This document shows, piece after piece, positions 33,621 to 64,000 of a stretch of DNA of 64,000 nucleotides (positions are counted from its first letter, which is position 1; every line of letters begins with the position of its first letter). The stretch lies in NCBI GenBank assembly GCA_021802555.1, contig JAJZRU010000011.1, forward strand, positions 1 to 64,000. Direction: 5' to 3'. The position numbers and the translations under genes were made by a program. The DNA is from Pseudomonadota bacterium. Its GTDB lineage: Bacteria; Pseudomonadota; Gammaproteobacteria; Burkholderiales; Thiobacillaceae. Below the pieces are notes generated by a model, which made no database searches, was not told where the DNA came from, and was given only the letters and a program-made list of their open reading frames with translations.

Positions 33621-33625
33621 GCAAG

Positions 33626-33785
33626 TACGCCAACCCATAAATTTCGCTATGTTCGACGCGCCCCGCATCGCCGATTGCTTTGTCGCTCATCCTCGCCATA
33701 GCTACGGCTATGGCTGCGGTTCGCTTCGCGCACTCGGCGCGCGGATGCGCGTCTCGGCATGTACGCAAACTTATGGGTCGGCGTA
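33626..33785. mobile_element. 160-bp MITE-like element, copy A
   Basis: A non-coding 160-bp element with imperfect 15-bp terminal inverted repeats: TACGCCAACCCATAA at the left and TTATGGGTCGGCGTA at the right. It is 158/160 identical to the copy at 47094-47253 (differences at 33632 and 33658). The right flank is CTAG; the left is CAAG, possibly a mutated CTAG target duplication of the type made by IS5-family transposases. It sits between the convergent MFS and toxin genes, six bases after the MFS stop. No transposase of its own. Confidence 0.82.
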
Positions 33786-33821
33786 CTAGTCGATGACGCG
33801 GATATGTCGGTAGCGCGGCGC

Positions 33822-46214: not shown

Positions 46215-47093
46215 TTGGCCCACGCCCCCCCGCCCCTCGCCGCCCCTTCCGAGAAGGGCATGCGCATCGCCATCGCCTTGATGGTGTCCGTGGCGCTGCA
46301 TGGCATCGTGCTCTCTACCCATTTCGTGCACGTCAATCCACGTCTGCTGGAAGACACCGGCCGGCGCCTGGATGTCGTACTCATCAACGCCAAGACCCGC
46401 GCAACCCCGCTCAACCCCGACGTGCTGGCGCAGGTAAGCCATATGGGCGGGGGCGAATCCGACGCCGATACGCGCGCCAAGAGCCCGCTGCCCGCGGCCG
46501 ACGTGGACAACGTCGCCGCGGCCCAGGCGCAGGTCAGGCAGCTGGAAGAAGAGGCGCGAGCGCTCATGACCCAGCTCAAGCAGGGCGCCCCGCCGCCCAG
46601 CACGCCCGCGCCGGAGCAGTCCAGTCAGAGCGGCCAGACCTCGCCCAGCGCCAGCCAGCTGCTGGAGCAGGGTCGCAACGCGGCACGCCTGGAAGCGGAA
46701 ATTTCGCGCCAATGGAACGCCTACCAGAAGCGCCCCCGGCTGCTCATCCCGGGCATCAACGCCAAGGGCTATGTATTCGCCGCCTATATCGCCGACTGGG
46801 TGGCCAAGATCGAGCGCATCGGCAACAACAATTACCCTGAGGCCGCCAAGCGGCTGGGCATCTACGGCAGCCTGGTGATGAGCGTCTCCATCCGTGCCGA
46901 CGGCAGCCTGGCGGGCGTGGAAATCGATCGCTCGTCGGGCTCCAAGATCCTCGATACCGCGGCGCAAAACATCGTCCATCTGGCCGCCCGTTTCGCCCCC
47001 TTCCCGCCCGAGATGCGCAAGGAGGGCGACATCCTGGTCATCACCCGCACCTGGACGTTCACCCGCTCCGACCGCATGTCGGGAAGCGACTAG
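46215..47093 (+). CDS. TonB-like energy-transducing protein
   Basis: 292 residues: one N-terminal membrane helix (IAIALMVSVALHGIVLSTHF), a coiled-coil segment (AAAQAQVRQLEEEARALMTQLKQ), a Pro/Ser-rich linker (about 117-140) and a C-terminal TonB domain (YPEAAKRLGIYGSLVMSVSIRADGSLAGVEIDRSSG). It probably transmits proton-motive energy to an outer-membrane receptor. The start is TTG at 46215; ATG at 46260 is an equally possible start. Its TAG stop (47091-47093) lies in the CTAG target site of the MITE that follows directly. Confidence 0.85.
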   Translation: MAHAPPPLAAPSEKGMRIAIALMVSVALHGIVLSTHFVHVNPRLLEDTGRRLDVVLINAKTRATPLNPDVLAQVSHMGGGESDADTRAKSPLPAADVDNVAAAQAQVRQLEEEARALMTQLKQGAPPPSTPAPEQSSQSGQTSPSASQLLEQGRNAARLEAEISRQWNAYQKRPRLLIPGINAKGYVFAAYIADWVAKIERIGNNNYPEAAKRLGIYGSLVMSVSIRADGSLAGVEIDRSSGSKILDTAAQNIVHLAARFAPFPPEMRKEGDILVITRTWTFTRSDRMSGSD

Positions 47094-47253
47094 TACGCCG
47101 ACCCATAAATTTCGCTATGTTCGACACGCCCCGCATCGCCGATTGCTTTGTCGCTCATCCTCGCCATAGCTACGGCTATGGCTGCGGTTCGCTTCGCGCA
47201 CTCGGCGCGCGGATGCGCGTCTCGGCATGTACGCAAACTTATGGGTCGGCGTA
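47094..47253. mobile_element. 160-bp MITE-like element, copy B
   Basis: Same 160-bp element as at 33626-33785, with perfect 15-bp terminal repeats TACGCCGACCCATAA / TTATGGGTCGGCGTA. Both flanks read CTAG (47090-47093 and 47254-47257), as expected of a 4-bp target duplication of IS5-family type. The left CTAG contains the TAG stop of the TonB-like gene. No coding capacity. Two differences in 160 bases from copy A imply recent spread. Confidence 0.87.
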
Positions 47254-47350
47254 CTAGTATTTATACCCGGCCATCTGTCGATTTCTTGCATAGCGCGAAA
47301 CTCGTCAACAAGACCGTTTCGGTCGAATCGAATTTCGCCGATTGTGATTG

Positions 47351-47468
47351 TCCGCAACCCCTGTCGTAAACGTTCCCGCTCGAACATGACAAGCCGGACG
47401 AAGTTTCGGCGCTCGCTTACATCGGCGCCCTTTTTCAGGGCGGTATCATAGGCCGGAAGCTGCAGCGG
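47351..47468 (-). pseudogene. decayed copy of glmS 3' end (left bracket of the efflux island)
   Basis: On the minus strand, 47379-47468 translates to PLQLPAYDTALKKGADV, then SERRNFVRLVMFE. This matches the intact GlmS C terminus ([17 protein letters not shown], then [13 protein letters not shown]) at 16 of 30 positions without gaps. The codon in place of the glmS stop is CGG instead of TAG. The sequence beyond it (47351-47376) agrees at 22 of 26 bases with the sequence beyond the second remnant (62125-62150). So it is an old copy of the glmS end plus flank, not a gene. The alignment was done by eye. Confidence 0.72.
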
Positions 47469-47741
47469 CCGATCAGCACACTTCCAGGTACGCCTGCGCA
47501 GTACCGCCATGTGCTGCCGGCTTACGGCAACGCCCTCGCCGCACCGCGGCCCGCGCCGGCGCGGCGCTGCGGCAGACAAGCGTCGATTGGCGTGAAACGG
47601 CGCGCAGCGTTGCCGCGTCCCCCTCGCCCTCTGGGAGAGGGCTGGGGGCAAGCACAGACCTTCCCTACACCCGCCGCCCATCCCAGCCGGCTTACGCCCT
47701 GCCGGGACATTGGCCGGGCCAGTTGAAGACGCGGGTGGCTT
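47469..47741. other. non-coding stretch with REP-like half element
   Basis: About 270 bases between the glmS remnant and the DUF302 gene without a credible reading frame. It includes GCCCTCTGGGAGAGGGC (about 47626-47642), a hairpin resembling half of the nested palindrome at 4160-4250. I see nothing else supportable here. Confidence 0.5.
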
Positions 47742-48131
47742 TTAAGCCGTCAAGCTGTCCCTTACCCGCTCCAGACGCCCCCTCACCTCCCGGGCGAGCT
47801 CGCCTATCCCCGCTTTATCCACGAGCTGCAGAACCGCGGCCGGATCCATGAAGGCGACGGTGACGGTCTTGTCCTCTTCTTCGCGCACGACCACGTTGCA
47901 GGGCAGCAAGGCGCCGATGTCGGGGTCCGTGGTAATGGCGCGGTGGGCCAAGGGGGGATTGCACGCCCCCAGAATGCGGTAGGGCCGCCCTTCGACATTC
48001 AATTTGGCCTTCATGGTGGCCTGTACGTCGATGTCGGTCAGCACGCCAAAGCCTTCGCGCTTCAGGGCCTCGATGGTTTTCTCTACGGCAACGGCAAAAG
48101 GCTGGTTCAGCTGCGCGGAAAATACGTACAT
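47742..48131 (-). CDS. DUF302-family protein
   Basis: 129 residues of the DUF302 family: [33 protein letters not shown] at the N terminus, [16 protein letters not shown] and [10 protein letters not shown]. Such proteins are small, of unknown biochemistry, and often adjoin copper or sulfur genes. The start at 48131 has TAGGAG nine bases ahead. The reading frame continues upstream without a start into a fragment of copB, so the longer open frame is not a real N terminus. Confidence 0.85.
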
Positions 48132-48171
48132 GCTATTTGCTCCTACGGTTGAAAATGAAAAAATCCCTCGA

Positions 48172-48370
48172 TGCCCGTCGTCGCGCACCGTCAAGGCATC
48201 GGCATCCCGGGTCTTGCCGTGGGCGTACTGGCCCCGGGAGCGTATCCATAGCTGGTTCAGGTTGTAGCCGATGCGCGCACGTCCATCCCAGGCAGCGCCC
48301 CAGCCGTTCTGGCCAGGCAGGTATTCGAGCTGGTCAGCATGGATTTGCTGATCAAGGGATCATCGTTCAT
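48172..48370 (-). pseudogene. truncated, frameshifted copB (copper-resistance outer-membrane protein) remnant
   Basis: Two minus-strand frames read as pieces of a CopB-like beta-barrel protein. One gives [11 protein letters not shown] (about 48339-48370). About 15 bases downstream a second frame gives [32 protein letters not shown] and GKTRDADAL (about 48172-48325), like the D(Q/R)LEW...AWD...NxLWLKSEG pattern of CopB. A frameshift separates them and the rest of the barrel is missing on both sides. I see no intact copA/copB pair nearby. Assignment is by remembered family pattern only. Confidence 0.55.
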
Positions 48371-48516
48371 GCCCCCAAGACCATTATGCCGTAGTGCGCA
48401 TACGAATACCGGGCGGAGTGATCTTTTTCGCACCTGCGTTGACCGTGATGACACAGGATGGCTTGCCCGGTATTCCACACGGCGACGGCAGCGGCGGCTA
48501 TGCGTGGTGATTGCAT

Positions 48517-51500
48517 TCACTCAACTGCCGCAGCGTTCCAGCGTCCGCCCAGATGCCGCCGATGCATCAGGATCAGGACGTAATAGACCACCGGCGTGGC
48601 GATGAGCGACAGCAGCACGGAGAAAGTTAGGGCGCCAATCACCGTGATTCCCAGCGGTTGCAGCATTTGCGCGCCGGCGCCCCCGCCGTAGGCCAGGGGC
48701 AGCATGCCCAGCGCCGCAGCGAGCGAGGTCATCAATACCGGCCGCAGGCGACGATGGCCCGCACGAACTAGCGCCTCGATGAGATCCATCCCCTCGGCCT
48801 GCAACTGCCGGAAGTAATCCAGCACGAGTATGCCGTTCTTGGCAACGATGCCGACGCCGATGATCGCTCCAAGATAGGAGACGATGTTCAGCGTGATGCC
48901 CGAGACCCACAACCCGAGCATCGCTCCGAACAAGGCCAGCACGGCGCCGAAAACGATGGCGATCGGCTCGTAGAATGAACGGAATTCGACCACCAGGACG
49001 ATGAACACGAGCAAGATGGCGGTGAGCAGCACTTCCAGAAGGGTATGGAACGATTTTTGTTGCAACCCGTAAAGGCCCGCATACTGTACCGTGCCGGGGG
49101 GTAGCCACTGGTCATGGCTCAGCGTGGCTTTGACCTCCCGTATGGCCGTGCCCAAATCGATTCCCTCCAGCCTGGCGTACACGGTGTCATCCTGACGCAG
49201 ATTGTCCCGATGGAGCACCATCTCGTTAGGCTGCTCTTGGACGGTGGCGACCTGATCCAAGCGGACCACCTGGCCGGTCGGCGTGCGGATGGGCAGGTTT
49301 CGCAAAGCGGCAAGATGGTCTACGGCCGACCGCTCCGCCAAAACACGGATGTTCACCACATGGTCGCCCGTGAGGACGAATGAGGAGATCTTGCCCAGCA
49401 GGGCGTTGTTGGCCTGATCCGCGATAGCCCGGGTCGTAAGACCGAAGCGTGCCGCATCCGCAGGCCGCACGCGCAGGTCGATGGCGGGCCCGCTCACCGT
49501 CAGGCCGTCAAAAGTGTCCACCAAGTGCGGAATTTTCTTGAGCTGATCCTGAACGCGTGGTGCGGTTGCCTTCAGCCATGCGAGGTCCGATGAAAACAGC
49601 CTGACTTCTATCGGATACGGCGCAAGTTGCAGATCGCCGATCAGATCATCGAGAAAGCCATGGATGTCCCAGCGCACCATCGGAAACCGGCTGTCGAATT
49701 GATGGCGGATATGCGCCATCACCTCGCGCGTCGTGTGCTTGCGGTCGGCTTTGAGCTTGATCAGGTAGCTGCCTACATAGGGCTGGCCCAGAAACGGTCC
49801 GAGCTGAAGTCCCAGCCGGCGCGAATAGCTCTGCACATCGGGATCGGCACGAATGATGTTTTCAGCCTGATCGAGAACGCGCGACGTCTCCGCCAGCGTC
49901 GTGCCCGGGAGTGCCGTGAAGTCGATATCGAAGCCGCCCTCGTCGAAATAGGGCAGGAAGTCGGTCTGCAGGCTCCGATAAACGAAACCGGCCCCGGCGA
50001 GCACCATGGCGCATGCAAGCAGCGTCACGCGCCAGTGCTCCAGGGCCCAGCGCAGCGCGCGTTCGTAGACCGACAGCACTCCCTTGAACAGCCTGCCGCC
50101 TTCCTCCTTTTTCTTCTCGCGGCCGCGGATGAACCACGCGGCCAGTGACGGCGTAAGGGTGACCGCAAGAACCAGCGATGCCAGCAGTGCCACCACCATC
50201 GCAAGTGCCAGCGCCCGGAAAAAAACCCCGGCAAGTCCATTCAAGAAAGCCAGCGGCAGAAATACCACCACGGGGGTCAGCGTCGAACTGACCAGCGCAG
50301 TGAGAATTTCCCCCATTGCGTTCTGGATCCCGGCGAGCCGCGGTTGTCCCGAGGAAATCTGGTGGCACATCGCCTCCACGACGATGATGGCGTTGTCGAT
50401 GATCAAACCAATGGACGCCGCGATGCCGCCGAGGGTCATCATGTTGAAACTGAGGCCCGCCAGCTTCATGACGACAAATGTCGCCAGCACCGAGACCGGG
50501 ATGGTGATGACTGCGGTCCAGACGCTGCCCCAGTCCTTCAGGAACAGGTAAAGGATCACCACCGAGAGCAACAGCCCGAAAATGATCGCATCCCAGACGT
50601 TGCTGATGGACTGCTGCACGAATGACGACTGGTCGTAATAGAGCACGAGGTGCATGTCCGGAGGGAGCTGCCGGTGCAGCCGTGCCAGATCGCTTTTCAG
50701 GGCCGCGGCAATGGACAAAATGCTGGCGTTGGAATGGGCCTCCACGTCGAACAGCACCGCCTGCCGTCCCTGCGCCGTGATGCTGGTGTACGCCGGCGCC
50801 GGTGCCCGTGTCACCTGCGCGACATCGCGAATCCGGATCGGATGGCCCGCATGAACGGCGACCACCAGGTTGCCGATGTCAGCCTCCGAGCGCACGCGCC
50901 CGTCCACCGTCGTCAGAAACAGGCGATAGTTGCGTTTCAGCAGGCCGGCGGACGCAATCAAGTTGTTCCGCTTCAGCGCTGCGCTCACGTCGCCGAGCGA
51001 CAGGTGCGCGGCCAGCAGTTTCGTCGGATCCACTACGATGTGATATTCCGGCACACGTCCACCGATTATCTGCACCCGGGACACCCCTGGAATCTGGAGA
51101 AACAGGGGCTTGATGGTGTAGGTCGCAGTATTCCACAGGTCCATGAGGCTGCGGTTGGGGTTGGAACTGGTCAGGCTGATTCCCATGATGGGATAGCTCA
51201 ACGTGAATCCGACCCGTGAAGCATCGGTGACGGTGCCCGGCGGCAGCTGGCCGCGTATCGTCGACAGCCGCCCCAGCACGTAGAGCTCGGATCGGCGCAT
51301 GTTCGCGTTCCAGTGGAACAGTACGTTGATGATGGCCGAGCCGCGCGTCGTGGAGGATCGCACCGAGCGCACCCCGGGGATTCGTTTCAGCGCATATTCG
51401 ATGGGGCGCGTCACCGTGGCCATCATCTGGTTCGCCGGCATGATGCCGTTGTGCACCGACACGACAATGCGGGGAAATGCCGTAGCCGGAAACACCGATG

Positions 51501-51615
51501 AGGGCATGCGCAAGGCCGCAAAAATGCCCGCCAGGCACAGCGTCACCGCGATGAAGGTGATGGCAAGCGCGTGCCGTGTGGCAAAACGTCCGACAGAGGA
51601 GGCGGGGGAACTCAT
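48517..51615 (-). CDS. RND efflux permease (system 1)
   Basis: 1032 residues of the RND superfamily: an N-terminal helix (FATRHALAITFIAVTLCLAGIFAAL), two large periplasmic loops and 12 helices in two halves. Helix 4 has MMTLGGIAASIGLIIDNAIIVVEAM, keeping the proton-relay Asp. Sequence character (PSSVFPATAFPRIVVSVHNG) fits the HAE-type or NFE-type rather than classical CzcA. It is the last gene of an OMF-adaptor-pump operon with four-base overlaps throughout. Substrate unknown; drugs, solvents or metals are all possible. Confidence 0.9.
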   Translation of the reverse strand: MSSPASSVGRFATRHALAITFIAVTLCLAGIFAALRMPSSVFPATAFPRIVVSVHNGIMPANQMMATVTRPIEYALKRIPGVRSVRSSTTRGSAIINVLFHWNANMRRSELYVLGRLSTIRGQLPPGTVTDASRVGFTLSYPIMGISLTSSNPNRSLMDLWNTATYTIKPLFLQIPGVSRVQIIGGRVPEYHIVVDPTKLLAAHLSLGDVSAALKRNNLIASAGLLKRNYRLFLTTVDGRVRSEADIGNLVVAVHAGHPIRIRDVAQVTRAPAPAYTSITAQGRQAVLFDVEAHSNASILSIAAALKSDLARLHRQLPPDMHLVLYYDQSSFVQQSISNVWDAIIFGLLLSVVILYLFLKDWGSVWTAVITIPVSVLATFVVMKLAGLSFNMMTLGGIAASIGLIIDNAIIVVEAMCHQISSGQPRLAGIQNAMGEILTALVSSTLTPVVVFLPLAFLNGLAGVFFRALALAMVVALLASLVLAVTLTPSLAAWFIRGREKKKEEGGRLFKGVLSVYERALRWALEHWRVTLLACAMVLAGAGFVYRSLQTDFLPYFDEGGFDIDFTALPGTTLAETSRVLDQAENIIRADPDVQSYSRRLGLQLGPFLGQPYVGSYLIKLKADRKHTTREVMAHIRHQFDSRFPMVRWDIHGFLDDLIGDLQLAPYPIEVRLFSSDLAWLKATAPRVQDQLKKIPHLVDTFDGLTVSGPAIDLRVRPADAARFGLTTRAIADQANNALLGKISSFVLTGDHVVNIRVLAERSAVDHLAALRNLPIRTPTGQVVRLDQVATVQEQPNEMVLHRDNLRQDDTVYARLEGIDLGTAIREVKATLSHDQWLPPGTVQYAGLYGLQQKSFHTLLEVLLTAILLVFIVLVVEFRSFYEPIAIVFGAVLALFGAMLGLWVSGITLNIVSYLGAIIGVGIVAKNGILVLDYFRQLQAEGMDLIEALVRAGHRRLRPVLMTSLAAALGMLPLAYGGGAGAQMLQPLGITVIGALTFSVLLSLIATPVVYYVLILMHRRHLGGRWNAAAVE

Positions 51616-52667
51616 TGCGCGCCCTCGCCATGCGGTTTGGCCGAAGCGGTTGCGGCTTCGTCTGGATGGATAATGCGGATTTCCGTGCGCCGCGGCAACC
51701 CGTAGGCGCCCACTGTGACCACCGGGTCGCCCGCCTTCAGGCCCGGCCCGCTGACCTGCACCCAGCCACTTTCTCGATAGCCGGTCTTCACCGCTGTGCG
51801 CACCGCTTGATCGCCTTGCACCAAGGAAATGAAGCTCTTCCCGGATATGCCGGTGATCACGCTCTCCGCAGGCGCGGCCAGCACATCCTTCTGCACGCCC
51901 ACGGTAATGCGCAACTGCACGAACTGGCCGGGACGCAAACCGCTATTGGCCGGCAGCGGGGCCCAGGTCGTGATCGAGCCGTCGGCCGGATCCACGGCAG
52001 GGCTGATATAGGCCAGAGGCACCGTCAAGGAGGGCTGCAGCACTTCCATGGGTTGGCCGGGCTGCAACTCGGCAGCCTGCATGGCCGGGATATCTGTCGT
52101 CACGACCAGGCGATGCAGGTTCACGATCTTCAGCAGCACCGTATCCGTATTGACGGCGGCACCGGGCGCGGCAGCGACATTCACCACCGTGCCGGACAAC
52201 GGCGCCGTCACGCGCAGCAGGGTAAGCTGCGCTTCGGCCGCCTGCAGCGTCTTGAGGGACGTATTGTGCTGCGCGTAGAGCTTCTCTTGCCGGGCTGCTT
52301 CCCGTTCCGCGTACCTCTCCGTCATGGTGCTGGAATTCAGTTCCGCCAGCAGTTGGCCGCGTCTGACTCGTTGACCCGGCGCAGCGTCCAGGCGGGTCAC
52401 GACTCCGGTTACCGGCGAGGCGACGGCGGCGAAGGCTGCCGGCTGCCTTGCCGTGGCCGGCGCCGCCGTCACTGTGCCGTAGCCGGTGACGTAGCGATGC
52501 AACGTCATGCGTTGGAGCGCGCCCACCTGCACGCTGATGCGGGTGGCGGTGGCGGCGCGCTTCTTGTCCGCGTCCGGAAAGTGAAGGCGCGACGCCATCA
52601 GCCAGGCAGCGCCGATGACTACGCCGATGGCGATGGCGCTGCGTAGAAAAACGGTTCTCGAATTCAT
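51612..52667 (-). CDS. RND periplasmic adaptor (membrane fusion protein), system 1
   Basis: 351 residues: a membrane anchor (SAIAIGVVIGAAWLMA), then a barrel-sandwich hybrid split by a short coiled coil (AVASPVTGVVTRLDAAPGQRVRRGQLLAEL ... EREAARQEKLYAQHNTSLKTLQAAEAQL ... VTAPLSGTVVNV) and a C-terminal beta-barrel. It links the pump to the outer-membrane channel. Its ends overlap both neighbours by four bases (ATGA). Confidence 0.9.
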   Translation of the reverse strand: MNSRTVFLRSAIAIGVVIGAAWLMASRLHFPDADKKRAATATRISVQVGALQRMTLHRYVTGYGTVTAAPATARQPAAFAAVASPVTGVVTRLDAAPGQRVRRGQLLAELNSSTMTERYAEREAARQEKLYAQHNTSLKTLQAAEAQLTLLRVTAPLSGTVVNVAAAPGAAVNTDTVLLKIVNLHRLVVTTDIPAMQAAELQPGQPMEVLQPSLTVPLAYISPAVDPADGSITTWAPLPANSGLRPGQFVQLRITVGVQKDVLAAPAESVITGISGKSFISLVQGDQAVRTAVKTGYRESGWVQVSGPGLKAGDPVVTVGAYGLPRRTEIRIIHPDEAATASAKPHGEGAQ

Positions 52668-54142
52668 GGGCTCGTCCTTTTCTGGGCGCGGGGCATATCG
52701 AATTGCGCTCGATGCAGCGCCATGGGTGACAGCGTAAGCGGACTCTCCACCGCCAGTTCCAGTCGGCCGAGCGCCTGCTGCGCTTGCACTTCGGCCCCGA
52801 GCCGCCTTCGCGCGCCGACATCCAACGCAACCTGCGCATTGGCGTAATCCAGAGGCTGCAGCTCGCCGGCCTCCACCTGCGCATGGATCGAATCCGTCTG
52901 TTTGTGCAGGCTGGCGAGCAGCAATGCCGCCGTTGCCATGCGTTCGCGGGCCGCGCGGTACGCGGCCAGTGCGCCGTCGATTTCGGCGATGGCACGGGCT
53001 TGCACGCTCAGGAAGCGTGCAGCCGCCAGTTCACGCCGTGCCTTCGCCTCGGCAATCGGCCCCTGATTGCGATTGAGGATGGGCAGGCTCAGGCCCAGCC
53101 CGATACTCCACTCGCTGTCGCCGGCAAGCTGCGCATTCCAGGCGTATCCCGGCCCAAGATGGATGTCCGGATATTGCAATGCGATCTGAAGTTGCAGGGC
53201 CGCCTGGCTGGCCGCGTACTCATCCAGCGCCGCGCGCACGTCCGCCCGGTTCAGCAGTGCTTTTTGCCGGATTTCAGCCCGGGTCAATTGCAGAGGGAAT
53301 GTCTTGAATGGGGCGAACGAGAGGCGCGCACCTTGCAGGGCGTGCAAAGGCAGCCCGAGCGCTTCAGCCAGGCGCACGCGCGCCTGGGATGCCCGCCCGG
53401 CGGCGGCTTGCTGCGCGAGGATCGTCGAGCTCAGTGCGGTGCGCGCCTGTTCGACGACATAGCTGGAAACGCTGCCAGCGGCAAACTGCTCGTCGAGCAG
53501 CCGGACGACAGTCCGGCGCGTCGATGCCTCGCGGCTCAGGAGCTCGTCGAGCCGGCGCGCCACGTAAAGATCCAGCAATGCGGCACGCACGCGACTGCGC
53601 ACCTGCCACACGGTGCCGATCAGTTTCCAGCGCGCGGCGCCGGCCCGCTCGCGCGCCTGCGCCATGCGGTCGCTGCGCTTGCCGGCGGTCTCGATGGTCC
53701 AGTCCAGGCGAAGCGGCACGATCCACGGACTCGTCGCGCCGGCAACACCCGCGTCGTATCCCGGCGTCACGGAGAGCGATGGATTGGGGCGTTCGCCCGC
53801 GGTGATCTGCGCGGCTTGAGCCGCCAGCAGGCGGGCCCGTGCTTCGGCAAGCACGGGCTGATAGTAAATCGCCGCCAGCGTGAGCGCCTTGAGATTCCAG
53901 GTTCCGCCCGGCGGAGGCGCCGTGACGTGATTCGCTGCGAGAAAGGTGCGCAAGCCGGAATTGTTCAGCGAGCGCGCGTCAAACGCCGCAGCGGTCATTC
54001 GGGGCGACAGGGGCCGGGAATGAAAATGCGCACAGCCGGAAATCAATCCGGAACAACAGAGCAGAAGCAGCCAGCGGCGGCTGCGGCGAGCCTTCCGCAA
54101 GCGCAGGGCTCGAAATACATTCGTAAGCACGGTAATCGGCAC
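52664..54142 (-). CDS. TolC-family outer-membrane efflux lipoprotein, system 1
   Basis: 492 residues. A basic N terminus leads into a lipoprotein signal with the lipobox LISGC (Cys37), followed by two OEP repeats of long helices (e.g. LRLDWTIETAGKRSDRMAQARERAG, LGLSLPILNRNQGPIAEAKARRELAAA). It forms the trimeric exit channel. First of the three pump genes; a small exported protein gene lies 125 bases upstream on the same strand. Confidence 0.9.
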   Translation of the reverse strand: MPITVLTNVFRALRLRKARRSRRWLLLLCCSGLISGCAHFHSRPLSPRMTAAAFDARSLNNSGLRTFLAANHVTAPPPGGTWNLKALTLAAIYYQPVLAEARARLLAAQAAQITAGERPNPSLSVTPGYDAGVAGATSPWIVPLRLDWTIETAGKRSDRMAQARERAGAARWKLIGTVWQVRSRVRAALLDLYVARRLDELLSREASTRRTVVRLLDEQFAAGSVSSYVVEQARTALSSTILAQQAAAGRASQARVRLAEALGLPLHALQGARLSFAPFKTFPLQLTRAEIRQKALLNRADVRAALDEYAASQAALQLQIALQYPDIHLGPGYAWNAQLAGDSEWSIGLGLSLPILNRNQGPIAEAKARRELAAARFLSVQARAIAEIDGALAAYRAARERMATAALLLASLHKQTDSIHAQVEAGELQPLDYANAQVALDVGARRRLGAEVQAQQALGRLELAVESPLTLSPMALHRAQFDMPRAQKRTSP

Positions 54143-54267
54143 GATCCCTCCAGGTCATGGTCCGGGAGACAAACGCCGGAAGGAATCTGACGAAGCAGGG
54201 CGGCGCCGCGCGCTGTTCGAGCGCGCCGGCGACATACTTCTGCTAGATCATCCCGACGGAAGCGGGA

Positions 54268-54723
54268 TCAGTGCGGAGGGGCGTGAGGCCAGGAAGCGCC
54301 CAGGACGAACGATCGTCGTGGAATGCGCAATGGGTTCTGTGTGAAGCCGGGTTTTGACGTTGCGACCGGGAAGGCGGCGAACACAACGGCGGCGACGGCC
54401 GGTGCCGCTTGCATGACGGAAACCGCCGCAACCCCGAAATCGCCGGTCTGGGCGACCGCGGAAAGATGTTGTTGCCCAGTGCAGCAACCGTTCGCATCCG
54501 CGTTCTTGCGGAAATGGCGGCCGGCAAGTATCGGGCTCGCAAAGCCGGCGACCTTAACTGCAGGCGCGTTGAAGTTGACTATGGCTTCGGCTTGCGGACA
54601 AAAGACGAGCGAAGTCAGCCACGCCAGCATCATCGCCAGGACACCGAACCGGTGCCCCAGACTTTCCCGTGTGTTTCCAGACAGCTTGCACGCAGCAGTC
54701 ATAACCTTTGAGCAATTTTTCAT
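54268..54723 (-). CDS. small exported Cys-Cys protein preceding RND system 1
   Basis: 151 residues, not recognised. An N-terminal signal-like helix ends WLTSLVFCPQAEA; a central NGCCTGQQHL carries a double cysteine; a hydrophobic segment follows (AAPAVAAVVFAAFPVA) and a Pro/Arg-rich tail. The layout (signal with a Cys near the cleavage point, CC motif, one more hydrophobic helix) is shared with the unrelated-looking protein starting at 54947 on the other strand. It may be a metal-binding or regulatory factor for the pump. The start at 54723 or 54741 is uncertain, and it could be spurious. Confidence 0.5.
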   Translation of the reverse strand: MKNCSKVMTAACKLSGNTRESLGHRFGVLAMMLAWLTSLVFCPQAEAIVNFNAPAVKVAGFASPILAGRHFRKNADANGCCTGQQHLSAVAQTGDFGVAAVSVMQAAPAVAAVVFAAFPVATSKPGFTQNPLRIPRRSFVLGASWPHAPPH

Positions 54724-54862
54724 TGCTGGAATTTTCCGCATCCTAGCCGAGCCCGGCGACGCCCGTCAAATCGCGGTCCGCCCGATGGATGGAGTGAAAC
54801 AGATTTTCCCGTGATAGCGGCGCTCACTCATTTATCCAGAAAATCCCTCCACCACTACCACC

Positions 54863-54915
54863 TTGACAAGGCGGCTTTGCGTAAATTATCTTGACGCGGT
54901 GCGAGAATTATTCTC
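54863..54915 (+). promoter_or_regulatory. candidate promoter with Fur-box-like palindrome before RND system 2
   Basis: TTGACA at 54863-54868 is a perfect -35 box. An AT-rich TAAATTATC (54882-54890) could hold the -10. At 54903-54915 stands the perfect palindrome GAGAAT-T-ATTCTC, the core of many Fur-type operators. Placed just past the presumed -10, it would block transcription when occupied. It lies upstream of the ATG I chose for the next gene. Confidence 0.5.
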
Positions 54916-54946
54916 ATCCAGACAGTTGCGTCGCCTGGCCTCGATA

Positions 54947-55297
54947 ATGGCTGTGGTGTGGCTTGCCTTTGTCGCGCTGGCCACGCTTCAGCGTTGTGAA
55001 GCGGCGGAAATCGACGCACACGGCGTACTGGAAGCTCAGCCTGCCGGTCAGCATGGCACCCAAGCTCCTCAAGACGATGCGTGCTGCCACTCGCAGGCCA
55101 GCAACCCTGATTTATTTCCGGGCTTATCGCTGAGCGACGGCAGCTTTAGCCTGTTCAAGCTGGTTCTATCGTCATTTTTGCCAACTTCGTTCCTGCTGCC
55201 GGCATCCGCCGGTCGTCCCGTCGCATCCCCCGCCTTGGGCGAACCTCCGCCCGCTCAAAGTAGCCCCTTCCTCGCTACGATCCGCCTGCTGATTTAA
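54947..55297 (+). CDS. small exported Cys-Cys protein preceding RND system 2
   Basis: 116 residues from the ATG at 54947, not recognised. A signal peptide (MAVVWLAFVALATLQRCEAA), a DDACCHSQ double-Cys motif with adjacent His, a hydrophobic segment (FSLFKLVLSSFLPTSFLLPA) and a Pro-rich tail. The frame is open back to a TTG at 54863, but that TTG is the -35 box of the candidate promoter, so the shorter protein is favoured; GTG 54899 is another option. It has the same architecture as the protein on the opposite side of the divergent region and may sense or bind a metal. The 211 bases after it hold no gene. Confidence 0.6.
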   Translation: MAVVWLAFVALATLQRCEAAEIDAHGVLEAQPAGQHGTQAPQDDACCHSQASNPDLFPGLSLSDGSFSLFKLVLSSFLPTSFLLPASAGRPVASPALGEPPPAQSSPFLATIRLLI

Positions 55298-55508
55298 AAG
55301 CGTCAGCTGCGCCGGCATTGCCAGGGGTGCTGTTTGCACGCCTCCAAGGCAACTGCGCATTGCCGTTATCACGGCCTTCTCCCGGCGTCCGCATCGTAAA
55401 AGTCGTCACCAGCGGACTTAATGCTGCCCCATTTCGGCGGGTAGCGTTTTGGGGGCGCGATACCGGCTCGCTGCACGTGGTGTCGTTAATCTTAGGGAGC
55501 AATTTTTC

Positions 55509-56843
55509 ATGCCCATATTGTGGAGAACCCACGCCAGTCGGGCCTTGTGGCGCTTGGTGTTTATCTTGATCGCCAGCGGAGGTTTCCATGCCACGGCGCA
55601 GGCCGCGGGTCTGGCTTTGGATCAGGCCATGCGCATGGTCCTCAAGGAAAACAAAGACTTGCGGGCTGCCCGCTATGTCGTCGAAATCGCCCGCGCCCGC
55701 CTACTGCAGGCCGGTCTGGCACCCAACCCCAGCTTGGAGATCGGCGGCCGCAACGACCTTCTGTTTGGCAACAACGGCGAATACACCGCAAGTGTCGCCT
55801 TTACCCAGCGTTTTCCGGTTGCCGGCCGCATCGCTCGCCAGAAGGACGTGGCGCGGGTCGACGTGGCTCTGGCCACGACCGAAATCAGCCAGGCCGAGCG
55901 CAAACTGGCCGATGAAGTCGCCAGGCGCTTTTACCGGGTGCTGGTACTGGACCGCCAAATTCAGGTATATGACCGCTTGATCGGCGTCGACCAGAAGCTG
56001 GTCAAGGTGACACGCGATCGCTACCGGGTAGCCGAGGTGTCGGAACTCGACGTGAACACCGCGCGGCTGGAATTGCAGCGCCTGTCGCAGGAACGTACTC
56101 TGCTGCAAAGCCAGCGTGTTCTTCAGCTCGCTCGCTTGAAGCAACTCCTTGGCCTCTCTGACGCCCAGCCACTGGCCTTGGATGACGATCTCCCCCCCCT
56201 GGCGCCGCTGCCGCCACTGGCCGAAGAGCAAAGCCGGGCGCTGGCCATTCGCCCCGACATGCAGGCGGCGTTGCTGGGAGCGGACCGCGCGCGCGCCGAA
56301 CTCGCCTTGGCCAAGGCACAGCGGTGGCAGGACTGGACGGTGAGCGTAGGCCTCGAACAGGGCCGGCGGGTGATCGAAGGCGTCCGCCCCCAGCCGAACG
56401 ACCGCGCGCTAGGCTTGAGCCTGTCCATCCCCTTGCCGTTGCTGAACAAAAACCAAGGCCGCGTTGCCGAGGCCATCGCCACCGGCACCCAGGCGGATGC
56501 GCGCATCGAGGCGCTCAAGTTCAACATCGGCAACGAGGTGGCCAGTGCCTATGTCGAGGCCGAGCGGCTGCAAGCCGTGGTGCGTCGATACCAGGACGGC
56601 ATGCTGGCCCTCAGCGACCGCAATGTGCGCTTGGCCCAGCAAGGCTACGACATGGGCCTGGCCCCGATACTCACGGTGGTACAGGCACAGCGTCAGCAGA
56701 GCGAGCTCTACGTCGCCTATCAGAATACCCTGGGCCAATACCTGCAGGCACTGGTGGCGCTGCGCACCGCGACGGGCGGTTATGCGGCGCAGCCCCTCCA
56801 GGCCGAACAGAAGGCCGCCGCCAACAACGCGAAGGAAAATTGA
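55509..56843 (+). CDS. TolC-family outer-membrane channel, CzcC-like (system 2)
   Basis: 444 residues: signal peptide (LVFILIASGGFHATAQAAG), then two OEP repeats (ALDQAMRMVLKENKDLRAARYVVEIARARL; LGLSLSIPLPLLNKNQGRVAEAIATG). It resembles the CzcC/CusC-like channels of metal pumps. ATG 55509 follows AGGGAG by ten bases. The adaptor gene begins two bases after its stop. Confidence 0.9.
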   Translation: MPILWRTHASRALWRLVFILIASGGFHATAQAAGLALDQAMRMVLKENKDLRAARYVVEIARARLLQAGLAPNPSLEIGGRNDLLFGNNGEYTASVAFTQRFPVAGRIARQKDVARVDVALATTEISQAERKLADEVARRFYRVLVLDRQIQVYDRLIGVDQKLVKVTRDRYRVAEVSELDVNTARLELQRLSQERTLLQSQRVLQLARLKQLLGLSDAQPLALDDDLPPLAPLPPLAEEQSRALAIRPDMQAALLGADRARAELALAKAQRWQDWTVSVGLEQGRRVIEGVRPQPNDRALGLSLSIPLPLLNKNQGRVAEAIATGTQADARIEALKFNIGNEVASAYVEAERLQAVVRRYQDGMLALSDRNVRLAQQGYDMGLAPILTVVQAQRQQSELYVAYQNTLGQYLQALVALRTATGGYAAQPLQAEQKAAANNAKEN

Positions 56844-56844
56844 C

Positions 56845-57843
56845 ATGAGCATCCGTGTCCACACAAAAAAATCATTGGGTTCAGGAATTCCGATGCCCGT
56901 TTTTCGGGCGCTCGGCGGCTTGCTGCTGCTTTCCCTTCTGGGGCTTGCCTCCGGCGCCCTACCCAGAGCCTTCGCCCATGGCGGTCAAATCGAGGTTGGC
57001 GGGGGGGCGCGCGGCCCGGTGCAATTGAACGCCGTGCAGCAAAAGGCCATCGCCCTCGAATTGGCTCCTGCCAGCATCCGCCCCTTGGAAAAGGTGCTGG
57101 ACCTGAATGGCGAAGTGCAATCGCTGCCCAACCGTCAAGCCGACGTCACTCTGCGCATCAGCGGCCAAGTCACGGGCCTCTATGCCAATCTGGGAGAAAC
57201 GGTGCGGGCCGGGCAAGCGTTGGCCAAGGTGCAGTCGCGCCTGATTGGCGATCCGCCGCCCAGCGTGACCATCACCGCCCCCATGCGCGGCGTCATCGAT
57301 GCCCGCAACATCGTTCTCGGGCAGGCGGTGGAGCCGAATACGGTGCTTTTCCATATCAGCGACCCGTCGCAGGTGATCGTGGTGGCCAGGGTCTATGAAG
57401 AAGACTTGGGAAAGGTCAAGCTGGGACAGGAAGCGCGCGTCCGCCTGCTGAGTTATCCGCAGCAGATCTTGAGCGGCAAGGTGACGCTCATCAGCCCGCA
57501 GCTGAATCCCCAGAACCGCACGGTGGCCGTATGGGTTCAGCTGCCCAATCCCCGGGGGATATTGAAACCCAACATGTTTGCCCGCGTGGCCGTGGTTCTG
57601 CAACGCGACAATGCCGCGCTGACGATTCCCAATGCCGCCATTCTCGAAGCCAACGGCGAGAAATTCGTATTCGTGCGCGAAGGGAACAAATACCACCGCG
57701 TGGAAGTGACCACCGGGGCCAGCGATGACGAATACACCGGAATTACCGGCGGCCTGGTGCCGGGCGACGAGGTGGTGACCCAGGGCAACCGCGAGATCTA
57801 CACCATGTGGCTGGCCGGCGGCCAGATGAAGGCAGGGGATTAA
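56845..57843 (+). CDS. RND adaptor, CzcB-like (system 2)
   Basis: 332 residues: a signal or anchor (FRALGGLLLLSLLGLASGALPRAFA) followed by HGGQIEV, a lipoyl-like half (LRISGQVTGLYANLGETVRAGQALAKVQSRL), ITAPMRGVIDARNIVLGQAVEPNTVLFHISD, and the beta-barrel. The coiled coil is very short, as in several metal-pump adaptors. Its stop is two bases before the pump start. Confidence 0.9.
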   Translation: MSIRVHTKKSLGSGIPMPVFRALGGLLLLSLLGLASGALPRAFAHGGQIEVGGGARGPVQLNAVQQKAIALELAPASIRPLEKVLDLNGEVQSLPNRQADVTLRISGQVTGLYANLGETVRAGQALAKVQSRLIGDPPPSVTITAPMRGVIDARNIVLGQAVEPNTVLFHISDPSQVIVVARVYEEDLGKVKLGQEARVRLLSYPQQILSGKVTLISPQLNPQNRTVAVWVQLPNPRGILKPNMFARVAVVLQRDNAALTIPNAAILEANGEKFVFVREGNKYHRVEVTTGASDDEYTGITGGLVPGDEVVTQGNREIYTMWLAGGQMKAGD

Positions 57844-57845
57844 TC

Positions 57846-61084
<3,239 letters not shown>

Positions 61085-61088
<4 letters not shown>

Positions 61089-61522
61089 GAACCCGCTTCA
61101 CACTGCTATTTTTGGGCATGCTGCTAGGCGGAAATCTGGCTTTCCAGCCCCGGGCGCTCGCCGGAGAAAAAGCGGAGGCGCCGGTGCGTATCCCACCGAC
61201 CGCCGCGGCCGTCTGGCAAGCCATAGACCAGCAGAGCGCGGCGCTGGGAAAGGCTATCCAGACGGGTGCGTTCACCGAAGTGCACCATCGTGCCTTTGCC
61301 ATCCGTGACTTGGCGGCATCCCTGCCCGCGCGCTCCGGCGGGCTGCCTCCCGACAAGCTGGCACAGGTCAAAGCAAACCTGCCATTTGTTGCCACGCTGG
61401 CACAGCGACTGGACGCCACCGGCGACGCCAAGGACCGGGCCGGCACAGAATCGAATTTCAGAAAGCTGCAAGCGATCTTGAAGCTTATGCGTGCCAATTA
61501 TCCGGAAACCGGTGGGAAATAA
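61085..61522 (+). CDS. conserved periplasmic protein of metal-efflux operons
   Basis: 145 residues with a signal peptide (FTLLFLGMLLGGNLAFQPRALA). The mature protein is helical: AAAVWQAIDQQSAALGKAIQTG, then EVHHRAFAIRDLAASLPARSG and RAGTESNFRKLQAILKLMRANY. The His pair in EVHHRAFAIRDL could bind metal. I cannot name a family with a known function. Translational coupling (ATGA) to the RND pump and 24 bases to the cupredoxin gene tie it to the pump. Confidence 0.7.
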
Positions 61523-61546
61523 TCTTGCTTGACAGGAGCGTACATC

Positions 61547-62011
61547 ATGAATCTCAACAAAAAATCCAAATGGGTCAATACTGCATTGTTGCTGGTGCTC
61601 AGCTTGCCTGGATACGCGCGGGCAAAAACCGAAGACTTTTCTTTCGGGCATCCCGGTCTAGCGGCGAAGGTGGGCCGCACCGTAAAGATCAATGCCTTGG
61701 ATAACATGCGCTTTAGCCCGGACAAGCTCCGGGTGCGGGCAGGAGAGACCGTGCGCTTCATCGTGACCAACAAGGGACAACTGGTGCATGAATTCATCCT
61801 CGGTGACCGCAAGGAGCAAGCTGAACACGAGCAGGAAATGAAGCGCATGGGGGGCATGGCCATGCCTGACGAGGCCAATGGCGTTACGCTTCGCCCCGGC
61901 CAGACCAAGACCCTTATCTGGACCTTCGGGAAGCCGGGTGAAGTCGAGTTCGCCTGCCACCAGCCTGGCCACTACCTGGCCGGAATGGTCGGAATAATCC
62001 AAGTCAAATAG
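61547..62011 (+). CDS. cupredoxin-like periplasmic copper protein
   Basis: 154 residues with a signal peptide (VNTALLLVLSLPGYARA) and a cupredoxin fold. His81 (LVHEF), Cys137, His142 and Met147 (CHQPGHYLAGM) form a complete type 1 copper site. A Met/His-rich loop (EHEQEMKRMGGMAMPD, about 94-108) lies between the ligands and could give extra Cu(I) sites. It probably hands copper to the efflux channel or oxidises Cu(I). AGGAG is eight bases before the ATG. Last gene of the operon. Confidence 0.9.
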   Translation: MNLNKKSKWVNTALLLVLSLPGYARAKTEDFSFGHPGLAAKVGRTVKINALDNMRFSPDKLRVRAGETVRFIVTNKGQLVHEFILGDRKEQAEHEQEMKRMGGMAMPDEANGVTLRPGQTKTLIWTFGKPGEVEFACHQPGHYLAGMVGIIQVK

Positions 62012-62124
62012 GAATTCCCTGCGTTGCGGCCGGCAAATTCAGGGGGGTTGCAAATCTTAGGCGACAGGTGATTCGCGCCACCAGGGTGTTCTGCCGCGCC
62101 TCTGCAAGCCGCGAAACCAGTGCC

Positions 62125-62191
62125 TCTGCAAACCCTGTCGTGAACGTCCCTATTCGACCGTCACAGACTTGGCGAGGTTTCGGGGCTTGTG
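62125..62191 (-). pseudogene. second glmS 3'-end remnant (right bracket of the efflux island)
   Basis: On the minus strand 62150-62191 encodes [13 protein letters not shown] followed by TAG, identical to the C-terminal 12 residues of the intact GlmS next door ([12 protein letters not shown]). Codon choices differ, so it is not a recent duplication. Past the stop, 62125-62150 matches 22 of 26 bases of the flank of the first remnant. Both remnants have the orientation of the intact glmS. Confidence 0.8.
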
Positions 62192-62247
62192 ACTCCGGCC
62201 GCCGCTTCGCGGCTTAACGTTCGCTCCGCTCACGTTAGCCTGCGCCG

Positions 62248-62261
62248 CAAGCCCAGGAACC
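62248..62261 (+). repeat. inverted 14-bp copy of the glmS tail
   Basis: CAAGCCCAGGAACC at 62248-62261 is the exact reverse complement of 62318-62331 within the intact glmS (codons for KPRNL). It might be a rearrangement scar at the attachment region, or simply pair with the transcript of the glmS 3' end. No functional terminator with a T-run is seen. Confidence 0.6.
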
Positions 62262-62291
62262 CGTGCCTTCCCCAACACTTGCGCAAACCAG

Positions 62292-64000
62292 CTATTCCAC
62301 GGTCACGGACTTTGCCAGGTTCCTGGGCTTGTCCACATCGGTGCCTTTTTGCAGGGCGGCGTGGTAGGCCAGAAGCTGCAAAGGCAGGGTGTGCAGTATG
62401 GGCGAGAGGGCGCCGCCGTGGCCGCCCGGCAGCTTGATGACGTGGACGAATTCGGATTCCTCGATGTTTACGTCGCCGTCGGCGAAGACGTAAAGCTCGC
62501 CGCCGCGCGCGCGCACTTCCTGGAGGTTGGATTTGAGCTTTTCCAGGAGCTGGTCGTTGGGGGCGATGGCGATCACCGGCATGTCCTTGTCCACCAGGGC
62601 CAGCGGACCGTGCTTGAGTTCACCCGCGGGATAGGCCTCGGCGTGGATGTAGGAGATTTCCTTGAGCTTGAGCGCGCCTTCCAGGGCGATGGGATAGTGC
62701 ACGCCGCGGCCCAGGAAGAGCGCGTGCTGCTTGTCGGCAAAGCGCTGCGACCAGGCCTCCAGGCGCGGCTCCAGGGCCAGCACCTGCTGGGCGCGCAGCG
62801 GCAGCTTGCGCATCTGGTCCAGATAATCGGCTTCTTGCTCGGGCGCCAGCCGGCCGCGCAGCTTGGCCAGCGTGAGGGTCAGCAGAAACAGGGCGGCCAG
62901 CTGGGTGGTGAACGCCTTGGTGGAGGCGACGCCGATCTCGGGGCCCGCGCGGGTGAGGAAGCGCAGGCTGGAGGCGCGCACCAGCGCGGATTCGGGTACG
63001 TTGCAGAGAGACAGGGTCAGGGTCTGCCCCAGGGCCTTGGCGTGGTTCAGGGCGGCCAGGGTGTCGGCGGTTTCGCCCGATTGCGAGATGGTGACGATGA
63101 GGGCGTCGGGGTTGGGCACCGAGCTGCGGTAGCGGTACTCGCTGGCGATCTCGGCGTTCGCCGGCACCCCGGCGATGTCTTCCAGCCAGTAGCTGGCCAC
63201 CTTGGCGGCATGGTAGCTGGTGCCGCAGGCGAGAAAGGTCACCGCCTTGACCCGGGCCAGCAGCGCCGGCGCCTCGGGGCCGAACAGCTCGGGCTGTATT
63301 TTGCCCTGCACCAGGGCGGTTTCCAGGGTATCGCTCAACGCTCTGGGCTGTTCGTGGATTTCCTTCTGCATGTAGTGCCGGTAGTTGCCCAGCTCCGCCA
63401 TGTCGGCGGTGAGTTCCGACATGTGCACCGGGCGCTCCACTTTACGGCCGCTGCGGTCATAGACGGCATAGCGCAGCAGGCCCAGGTCGGCCACGTCGCC
63501 CTCCTCCAGGAAGACCATGCGCTGGGTCACGGGCAGCAGGGCCGAGGCGTCCGAGGCGATGAAGTTTTCCTCGATGCCCAGGCCGATGAGCAGCGGGCTG
63601 CCCTTGCGCGCGCACACCAGTTGATGCGGGGCATCCCGGTGCACCACGCCGATGGCATAAGCGCCCTCCAGTTCCGCGACCGCCGTCTGGGTGGCCGCCA
63701 GCAGGTCGCGGCCCTCCCGGTAGTGGTGCTCGATGAGGTGGGCAATGACTTCGGTATCGGTGTCGGACTGGAACTTGTAGCCCAGGCCCTGCAGGCGCGC
63801 ACGCAGCGTCTCGTGGTTTTCGATGATGCCGTTGTGCACCACCGCCAAGCCGCCGCTCACATGGGGATGCGCGTTGAATTCGGTGGGGGCGCCGTGCGTG
63901 GCCCAGCGCGTGTGGGCGATGCCCAGGTGGCCGTGGATGTGCTCGGCCGCGGCGGCCTCCGCCAGACCGGCCACGCGGCCCACGCTGCGCACGCGGCGCA
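62292..64000 (-). CDS. glmS: glutamine--fructose-6-phosphate aminotransferase (isomerising), N terminus outside the window
   Basis: About 569 residues are in the window; roughly the first 40, including the Cys1 nucleophile, are cut off at the right edge. The amidotransferase part shows [14 protein letters not shown] and [10 protein letters not shown], and two SIS sugar-isomerase domains follow ([53 protein letters not shown]). It makes glucosamine-6-phosphate for peptidoglycan and LPS. The last 12 residues [12 protein letters not shown] are the conserved region that Tn7-type TnsD recognises. Confidence 0.96.

Follow-up and report, generated by a model that had tools for sequence, protein, structure and literature searches.

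A hairpin unit at the glmS 3' end of a Thiobacillaceae genome and the putative replacement of the last codons of core genes

We analyzed a stretch of 64,000 nucleotides (the window) that corresponds to positions 1-64000 of one contig (G000:C29; JAJZRU010000011.1) of a Thiobacillaceae assembly of 2.77 Mb in 48 contigs. At its right end, the window contains glmS, and two partial copies of the glmS 3' end, termed R1 and R2, are located downstream of this gene. The nearer copy, R2, is the old glmS tail pushed out by a 142-bp unit that is formed by a new glmS tail and a hairpin. Units of the same type were found at many other genes. R2 was probably left behind by a small element that enters a gene within its last codons and supplies a new end for it. 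The presence of such units at many core genes of betaproteobacteria suggests that essential genes can receive inserted DNA in a way that has not been described and that leaves them intact. The labels G, C, and L refer to genomes, contigs, and loci, respectively.

The glmS hairpin unit and the displaced gene tails

It had initially been proposed from the sequence that two minus-strand segments are homologous to the 3' end of glmS. The alignment scores exceed those of every dinucleotide shuffle and bear out this homology: local alignment scores were 52 for glmS and R1, 47 for the glmS tail and segment 62001-62291, and 42 for R1 and R2, as compared to best shuffle scores of 31, 29, and 29, respectively (500 shuffles per pair). 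A repeat search aligned R1 (47403-47469) with glmS (62319-62385) at 75% over 67 nt and R1 (47351-47413) with R2 (62125-62187) at 73% over 63 nt. The more detailed agreements were also recovered, all of them counted by eye: R2 encodes the GlmS C-terminal residues with 12/12 identical, 16/30 residues of R1 match GlmS, and 22/26 bases past the stop agree between R1 and R2. Direct repeats of the glmS end are present at both borders of the 47.4- to 62.1-kb interval.

The unit covers positions 62191-62332 and contains, in this order, the new glmS tail, the stop codon, a spacer, an arm complementary to the tail start, and a structured core of ~57 nt (Table 1). The covariance model of the core matched positions 62182-62255 with 95.6 bits (E value of 1.5e-22 in the window), a sequence that belongs to the model seed. 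The core borders R2, which starts ACAAGCCCCG, between positions 62191 and 62190, and this junction falls within the former glmS coding tail, before K-P-R-N. An identical order, with a remnant beginning at an equal codon position, was observed at glmS of four further genomes (G036, G004, G081, and G078), where the tails are 118 to 140 bp apart. The order is equal in G021, but 2.6 kb separates the two tails. A core was also found 3' of glmS in G060, which belongs to a different family of the same order.

Table 1. Features of the window that are related to the glmS tails, the hairpin unit, and the adjacent segments
Feature	Position (nt)	Strand	Basis and remarks
glmS	62292-63998	-	ORF and relatives; 5' end outside the window
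Tail #1, present glmS 3' end (ACAAGCC to stop), which opens the inserted unit	62292-62332	-	Differs from R2 at 7/36 coding nt and 0/12 residues
Spacer after the glmS stop, 30 nt	62262-62291	-	Sequence reading
Arm GGTTCCTGGGCTTG, exact complement of the tail #1 start CAAGCCCAGGAACC	62248-62261	-	Score of 28; 0/1000 shuffles as high
Structured core, ends GGCCGGAGTC	62191-62247	-	Covariance-model match and covariation in 88 related cores
R2, displaced former glmS tail (12 residues and stop)	62150-62190	-	Repeats, alignment, and tail comparison
Arm of the older layer, 13/14 complementary to the R2 start	62105-62118	-	Score of 23; 0/1000 shuffles
Accessory copper/RND efflux segment	47742-62011		Pfam: DUF302, RND-HlyD-OEP, OEP-HlyD-RND, cupredoxin
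R1, glmS tail remnant, possibly the oldest	47351-47469	-	Homologous from ~105 nt upstream of the stop through 26 nt past it
Possible arm of R1, 15/17 with two 1-nt gaps	47292-47306	-	Score of 20; 0/1000 shuffles; R1 start hand-picked
Dispersed ~170-bp element with 24-nt terminal inverted repeats (96%)	47089-47258		Repeat search; at the tonB breakpoint

Sites with the unit were compared to empty sites. The sequence beyond the displaced glmS tail was aligned with that of relatives in which the glmS tail directly borders the same neighbor. Five of these comparisons favor an insertion, namely, G036-G022 (152/158), G004-G022 (135/154), G081-G018 (130/152), G081-G079 (131/155), and G021-G022 (111/139), and one does not.

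The displaced tails carry the signature of coding sequence. At 39 loci, which are those of 56 coding sites that passed filters for length, identity, and redundancy, 159 synonymous and 101 nonsynonymous changes separate the present tails from the displaced ones, with 23% synonymous changes being expected. In the six glmS tail pairs, 43 nucleotide differences result in only 4 residue differences; the two tails of G004 glmS are identical (0/36 nt). Since the differences are mostly synonymous, the tail sequences indicate that the displaced tails were functional and coding until recently and that the present tails have had a separate history.

Distribution, targets, and architecture of the element family

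The covariance model retrieved core matches (E value of ≤0.01) in 71 of 117 genomes of the family, covering all 12 genera. Up to 41 matches were found per genome; about 41 candidates were scored in each, and the counts per genome are thus lower bounds. An exact-pattern search of named genomes resulted in at least 118 stretches. According to the record titles, these were mostly betaproteobacterial and included Thiobacillus, Hydrogenophilus, Gallionella, Sideroxydans, Dechloromonas, Sulfuritalea, Methylophilus, Cupriavidus, Paraburkholderia, Pandoraea, and others. Some of the remaining titles read only Proteobacteria, two were Gammaproteobacteria, and single occurrences were found in Streptomyces, Sphingomonas, Solirubrobacteraceae, Acidimicrobiia, and Silanimonas. 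Among the first 80 pattern loci, 75 matched the model (E value of ≤0.001), the exceptions being L201, L219, L222, L231, and L269. The pattern also occurred in 10 viral contigs, and a search of plasmids and phages with one 64-nt consensus core gave no match at an E value of ≤1e-3. Apart from tRNA, no Rfam family matched positions 61900-62500 or seven further loci at the gathering score.

The structure of the core is conserved. In an alignment of 88 cores (84 distinct) fitted to the model, 15 of the 24 pairs vary on both sides, with 222 double-changed cells; none of 500 shuffles was as high, and slid structures gave 24 to 50 cells. A tandem array of 89-bp units that has part of the core stem sequence in common is located at G000:C30:158042-158258 (L098), and the core is enclosed at L251 and L270 in a larger palindromic element with outer inverted arms in the flanks (~17 nt in L251; by eye).

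To describe the junctions, we entered 209 core matches from separate searches (88/88, 37/41, 82/94, and 2); the 16 matches omitted by hand were mostly, although not all, second copies of places already entered. After removal of 15 matches without an anchor and 9 redundant ones, 185 sites remained, of which 178 had sufficient flanking sequence. A number of regularities were observed. (i) The first nucleotide of the right flank is A at 174/185 sites, and the last left position covaries with the second right position (T/A at 114 and G/C at 29 of the 185 sites). (ii) The right flank, which is the gene tail, is repeated within 500 nt upstream across the core at 80/178 sites, as compared to 2/164 in the control. 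This repeat starts within 6 nt of the junction at 64/80 sites, and an open frame of at least 100 codons ends between the tail start and the core at 56/80. (iii) The arm matches the tail of its own unit more often than the displaced tail. Pairing of at least 10/14 was observed with the own tail at 34/80 sites, with the displaced tail at 12/80, and, in 0.56% of draws, with tails taken from other sites. A second core junction lies within the interval at 17/80 sites; when these are removed, the own tail is matched at 28/63 sites and the displaced tail at 11/63. (iv) The unit has a median length of 143.5 bp. At the 64 sites with the repeat at the junction, tail, spacer, and arm together have a median of 88 nt, with 32/64 falling within 80 to 95 nt. 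Tail length and remaining length are inversely correlated (r=-0.84, n=31), as compared to a permuted mean of -0.26, and 0/2000 permutations were as low; this analysis comprised 31 of 46 coding sites, with the sum restricted to 60 to 130 nt and the same filter applied in the permutation. The compensation suggests a size limit on the unit. (v) Units also occur in tandem arrays; L325 has three near-identical units, and L327 has four.

Searches against Pfam and NCBIfam identified smpB, recR, trpE, argF, nrdA, nrdB, ftsW (FTSW_RODA_SPOVE), alanine transaminase, accB, dapD, metK, ccmE, and acetate-CoA ligase as targets; these scanned target genes are core genes. For the target genes of L322 and L282, each scanned against a single library, no match was obtained. 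Two tRNA genes, tRNA-Leu (L171) and tRNA-Phe (L331), are also targets, the amino acids being read from the anticodons. At six sites (L177, L180, L182, and L188-L190), the element faces the start of a putative cobW-like gene (named by reading), so that the location at gene ends is not universal. A core at G000:C30:2000-2073 (L097) lies within a type I restriction methylase gene (named by reading), apparently without a copy of a gene tail. Large cargo was observed only at G021 glmS, where the 2.6-kb interval contains an ORF of 623 amino acids that had no Pfam match over the curated cutoff and no PADLOC match.

Putative older layers, the efflux segment, and the tonB side of the window

The idea that the glmS 3' end is a repeated integration site was borne out, and the successive insertions that the original prediction invoked as one of its options fit the data, since each of the three tails (glmS, R2, and R1) precedes an arm that is complementary to the start of that tail, the arm of R1 being the weakest. 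Two layers are clear in the window, namely, glmS with R2, and R2 with its own arm, and R1 may be a third and oldest layer. In the simplest reading, the layers arose in succession, with R2 formerly serving as the glmS end and R1 perhaps doing so at an earlier time. On the 3' side of the R2 arm, no core remains scored above 6 bits with the covariance model. R1 extends ~60 nt further into glmS than expected from a hairpin junction, so that part of its history differs and may involve an island or a replaced glmS copy. Long R1-like remnants of glmS tails are also found 3' of glmS at L106 and L129, and an isolated one is found at L107; their junctions are unlike the hairpin type. As to G001 and G002, the two genomes of the same genus, the contig of the former ends 2 nt past the glmS stop (G001:C109, L075), and the latter had no glmS tail match.

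The accessory cargo expected between R1 and R2 is present: Pfam identified DUF302, two RND permeases with HlyD and OEP partners, and a cupredoxin, and two of the ten scanned ORFs had no match. The GC comparison that had been advised was run. The 1-kb windows across 48001-62000 have GC contents of 0.59 to 0.68, whereas values to the left are mostly 0.64 to 0.73, with 0.60 as the lowest. In 100 genomes of the family, the permease at 48517-51615 had only three other matches with an E value of ≤1e-150, at 37% identity, in G000, G001, and G002, and its best plasmid match was at 53%. Low GC content and a permease without close matches in the family indicate that the efflux segment was probably acquired. 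Its genes sit between the second and the possible third layer; they may have been carried by the element.

Gene order in relatives indicates that the tonB side is a rearrangement breakpoint. In G001, of the same genus, tonB is followed by part of the 170-bp repeat and then by fbp (class 1 fructose-bisphosphatase, NCBIfam). A DNA query with that G001 region did not find fbp in the genome of the window, and the genes beyond fbp in G001 are on contig C30 of the window's genome. Near-full-length copies of the 170-bp element occur at 14 or more other places in the genome, one of them at window positions 33624-33790, and a dispersed repeat of ~61 bp at 47587-47647 has more than 25 further matches.

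Possible mechanism, alternatives, and relation to known systems

The unit consists of a gene tail opening with AAAA or ACAA, a stop codon, a spacer, an arm complementary to the tail start, and the conserved stem-loop core of ~57 nt. The data show this unit and its conserved structure, the fit between arm and tail, the displacement of once-functional tails, and empty counterparts of glmS sites. According to the mechanism that we propose, insertion between a core and AAAA would shift the old tail outward while the gene stays complete. By analogy with integron cassettes, we infer that the active form would be the folded unit, as single-stranded DNA or RNA, and that the arm would help to define the target; mobility, rather than repeated local duplication, is likewise the interpretation that we draw from the data. 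A more far-reaching version appears possible but doubtful, namely, that this is a nucleic-acid-guided mobile element with units of ~143 bp, in which a constant scaffold is combined with a locus-specific guide arm. Such an element would find the essential gene whose 3' end is complementary to the arm and swap the last codons of that gene; it would act on more than 12 core genes across Betaproteobacteria and depend on an enzyme acting in trans.

A number of points weigh against insertion with tail replacement. (i) The covariance model (24 pairs) was built from five hand-typed cores, and fitting the 88-core alignment to the model biases the covariation towards it. (ii) At the threshold used, 98/178 testable sites had no tail repeat. 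(iii) Arms are short at many sites; the arm pairs better with the displaced tail at 13/80 sites, with ties at 35, and when arrays are removed, 11/63 sites favor the displaced tail and 25 the own tail. (iv) Among the 39 loci, L228, L409, L300, and L303 have mainly nonsynonymous differences, and changes in the same tail are not independent of each other, which makes the P value of the synonymous test optimistic. (v) The filled/empty comparison of G081 with G063 gave no match (9/10 only), and the phylogeny of glmS tails did not assign tail #1 to another genus or lineage, the tail being too short. (vi) No long-range cargo was found at 68 further sites. (vii) None of three enzymes searched for in 26 genomes strictly tracks core copy number: Y1_Tnp was found in 16/26 genomes, RVT_1 in 6/26, and the integron integrase over the cutoff in 18/26.

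The Y1 transposase, the reverse transcriptase, and the integron integrase were rejected as the enzyme, since their presence does not follow copy number; core matches are also not located near the integron integrase. Seven genomes (G015, G020, G028, G029, G065, G066, and G070) have 11 to 36 core matches and no Y1 match, and only 1/30 Y1 loci (L343) has a core match, which is weak. Among the first 15 of the 26 genomes, all of which have at least 9 core matches, RVT_1 was found in 3 (G004, G012, and G021). The integron integrase is present in genomes without core matches (G077, G023, G005, G016, and G067) and had no match over the cutoff in some genomes with many (G012, G034, G036, G065, G070, and G027); of 30 TIGR02249 loci (L364-L393), one (L388, a weak integrase match) has a core match, again weak. 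Past the window by ~23 to 25 kb, an integron integrase (TIGR02249, over the cutoff) and one attC-like site are encoded at G000:C29:86564-87505 and 88580-88645 (L086). A protein common to the core-bearing loci was also sought and rejected, as the clusters listed consisted of target genes, neighbors, and antisense frames (by reading).

Several alternatives can account for part of these data. Homologous recombination of circles or fragments that carry a tail and the hairpin, through 40 to 60 nt of tail homology (Campbell-type) and with the hairpin as a passive, terminator-like passenger, would make a special enzyme unnecessary and would yield an equal tail-hairpin-tail layout as well as tandem arrays such as those in L325 and L327. 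However, it leaves unexplained why cores precede AAAA or ACAA in many unrelated genes and why the arm matches the element's own tail, and we consider it unlikely. The chances are lower still for a tyrosine-recombinase island in the glmS 3' end with R1 and R2 as copies of its attachment site. The direct orientation, the gene tails on both sides, the accessory cargo between them, and the long remnants at L106, L129, and L107 agree with such an island, but no integrase is encoded by the ten scanned ORFs of the R1-R2 interval, and the precise R2 junction is common to the glmS hairpin units of G036, G004, G081, G078, and G021. The earlier proposal of R1 and R2 as two ends of one island was not borne out: R2 belongs to a hairpin unit, R1 has more glmS sequence than expected from a hairpin junction, and its outer neighbor at tonB is the breakpoint; simple island ends were rejected on the last two grounds.

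Another alternative is a transposed hairpin around which the DNA was duplicated locally in tandem and then decayed neutrally; it would be consistent with identical copies such as the G004 glmS tails. It conflicts with the synonymous excess between present and displaced tails and with the preference of the arms for the present over the displaced tail, and we regard it as very improbable. The proposed scar of a Tn7-like transposon at attTn7 has next to no probability. GlmS is encoded by a known Tn7 target, and the match between R1 and R2 reaches 26 bp past the stop, near the insertion point of Tn7, but the R2 junction lies inside the coding region, not ~25 bp past the stop, an intact replacement tail is supplied, and elements of the same kind are found at many other genes. 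The junction position and the replacement tail led us to reject this scar; the ten island ORFs contained no Tn7 protein, TnsABCD and Tn7-like ends not having been searched for elsewhere.

If insertion with tail replacement is correct, a small structured element would have exchanged the last codons of many essential genes in Betaproteobacteria. Genes could evolve along this route without being broken, and such events would be easy to overlook. The constant scaffold and the target-matching arm would make the element a new candidate system for the guided insertion of DNA, with units short enough for direct testing. Duplicated gene tails near glmS or tRNA genes would then not necessarily be marks of genomic islands. 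The open papers searched, including passages of PMC10293859 and PMC2267715, contained no description of the element, preprints being absent from that search and subscription papers few; specialists may know the repeat under another name.

The unit shares features with several known systems. Integron cassettes have a hairpin att site with an outer arm that matches the start of their own cassette and with variable inner stems, and they form tandem arrays. The present units resemble attC sites in that the arm complements the element's own tail (34/80 versus 12/80 for the displaced tail) and in their tandem arrays and variable inner stems. They differ in that the GTTRRRY motif was found at 0/185 junctions and in that they are located at the 3' ends of core genes rather than next to intI, are mostly free of cargo, and are not concentrated near integrases. 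Some tyrosine-recombinase elements enter a tRNA or protein gene at its 3' end and rebuild the gene; here too, a conserved gene end is targeted, a replacement end is supplied, and the old end is displaced, but the unit of ~143 bp has no recombinase gene and combines a constant core with a locus-specific arm. REP and BIME sequences are small chromosomal palindromic repeats with many copies. This feature is shared with the present units, whereas the duplication and replacement of gene tails and the lack of tracking between Y1 and copy number distinguish them from REP/BIME with RAYT. Tn7 and CAST elements insert after the glmS stop, ~25 bp past it in the case of Tn7, and carry no tail; glmS is a target in both cases, but the junction of the unit is within the coding region. 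Tsy is a tyrosine-recombinase transposon at comM that encodes its own recombinase and a target selector (PMC10293859). A hairpin core and a replacement gene tail are not among the Tsy features described in the passages considered, and circular intermediates are a feature of Tsy; the two systems are alike in their insertion into a conserved gene and in the short homology between the element end and its target (PMC10293859).

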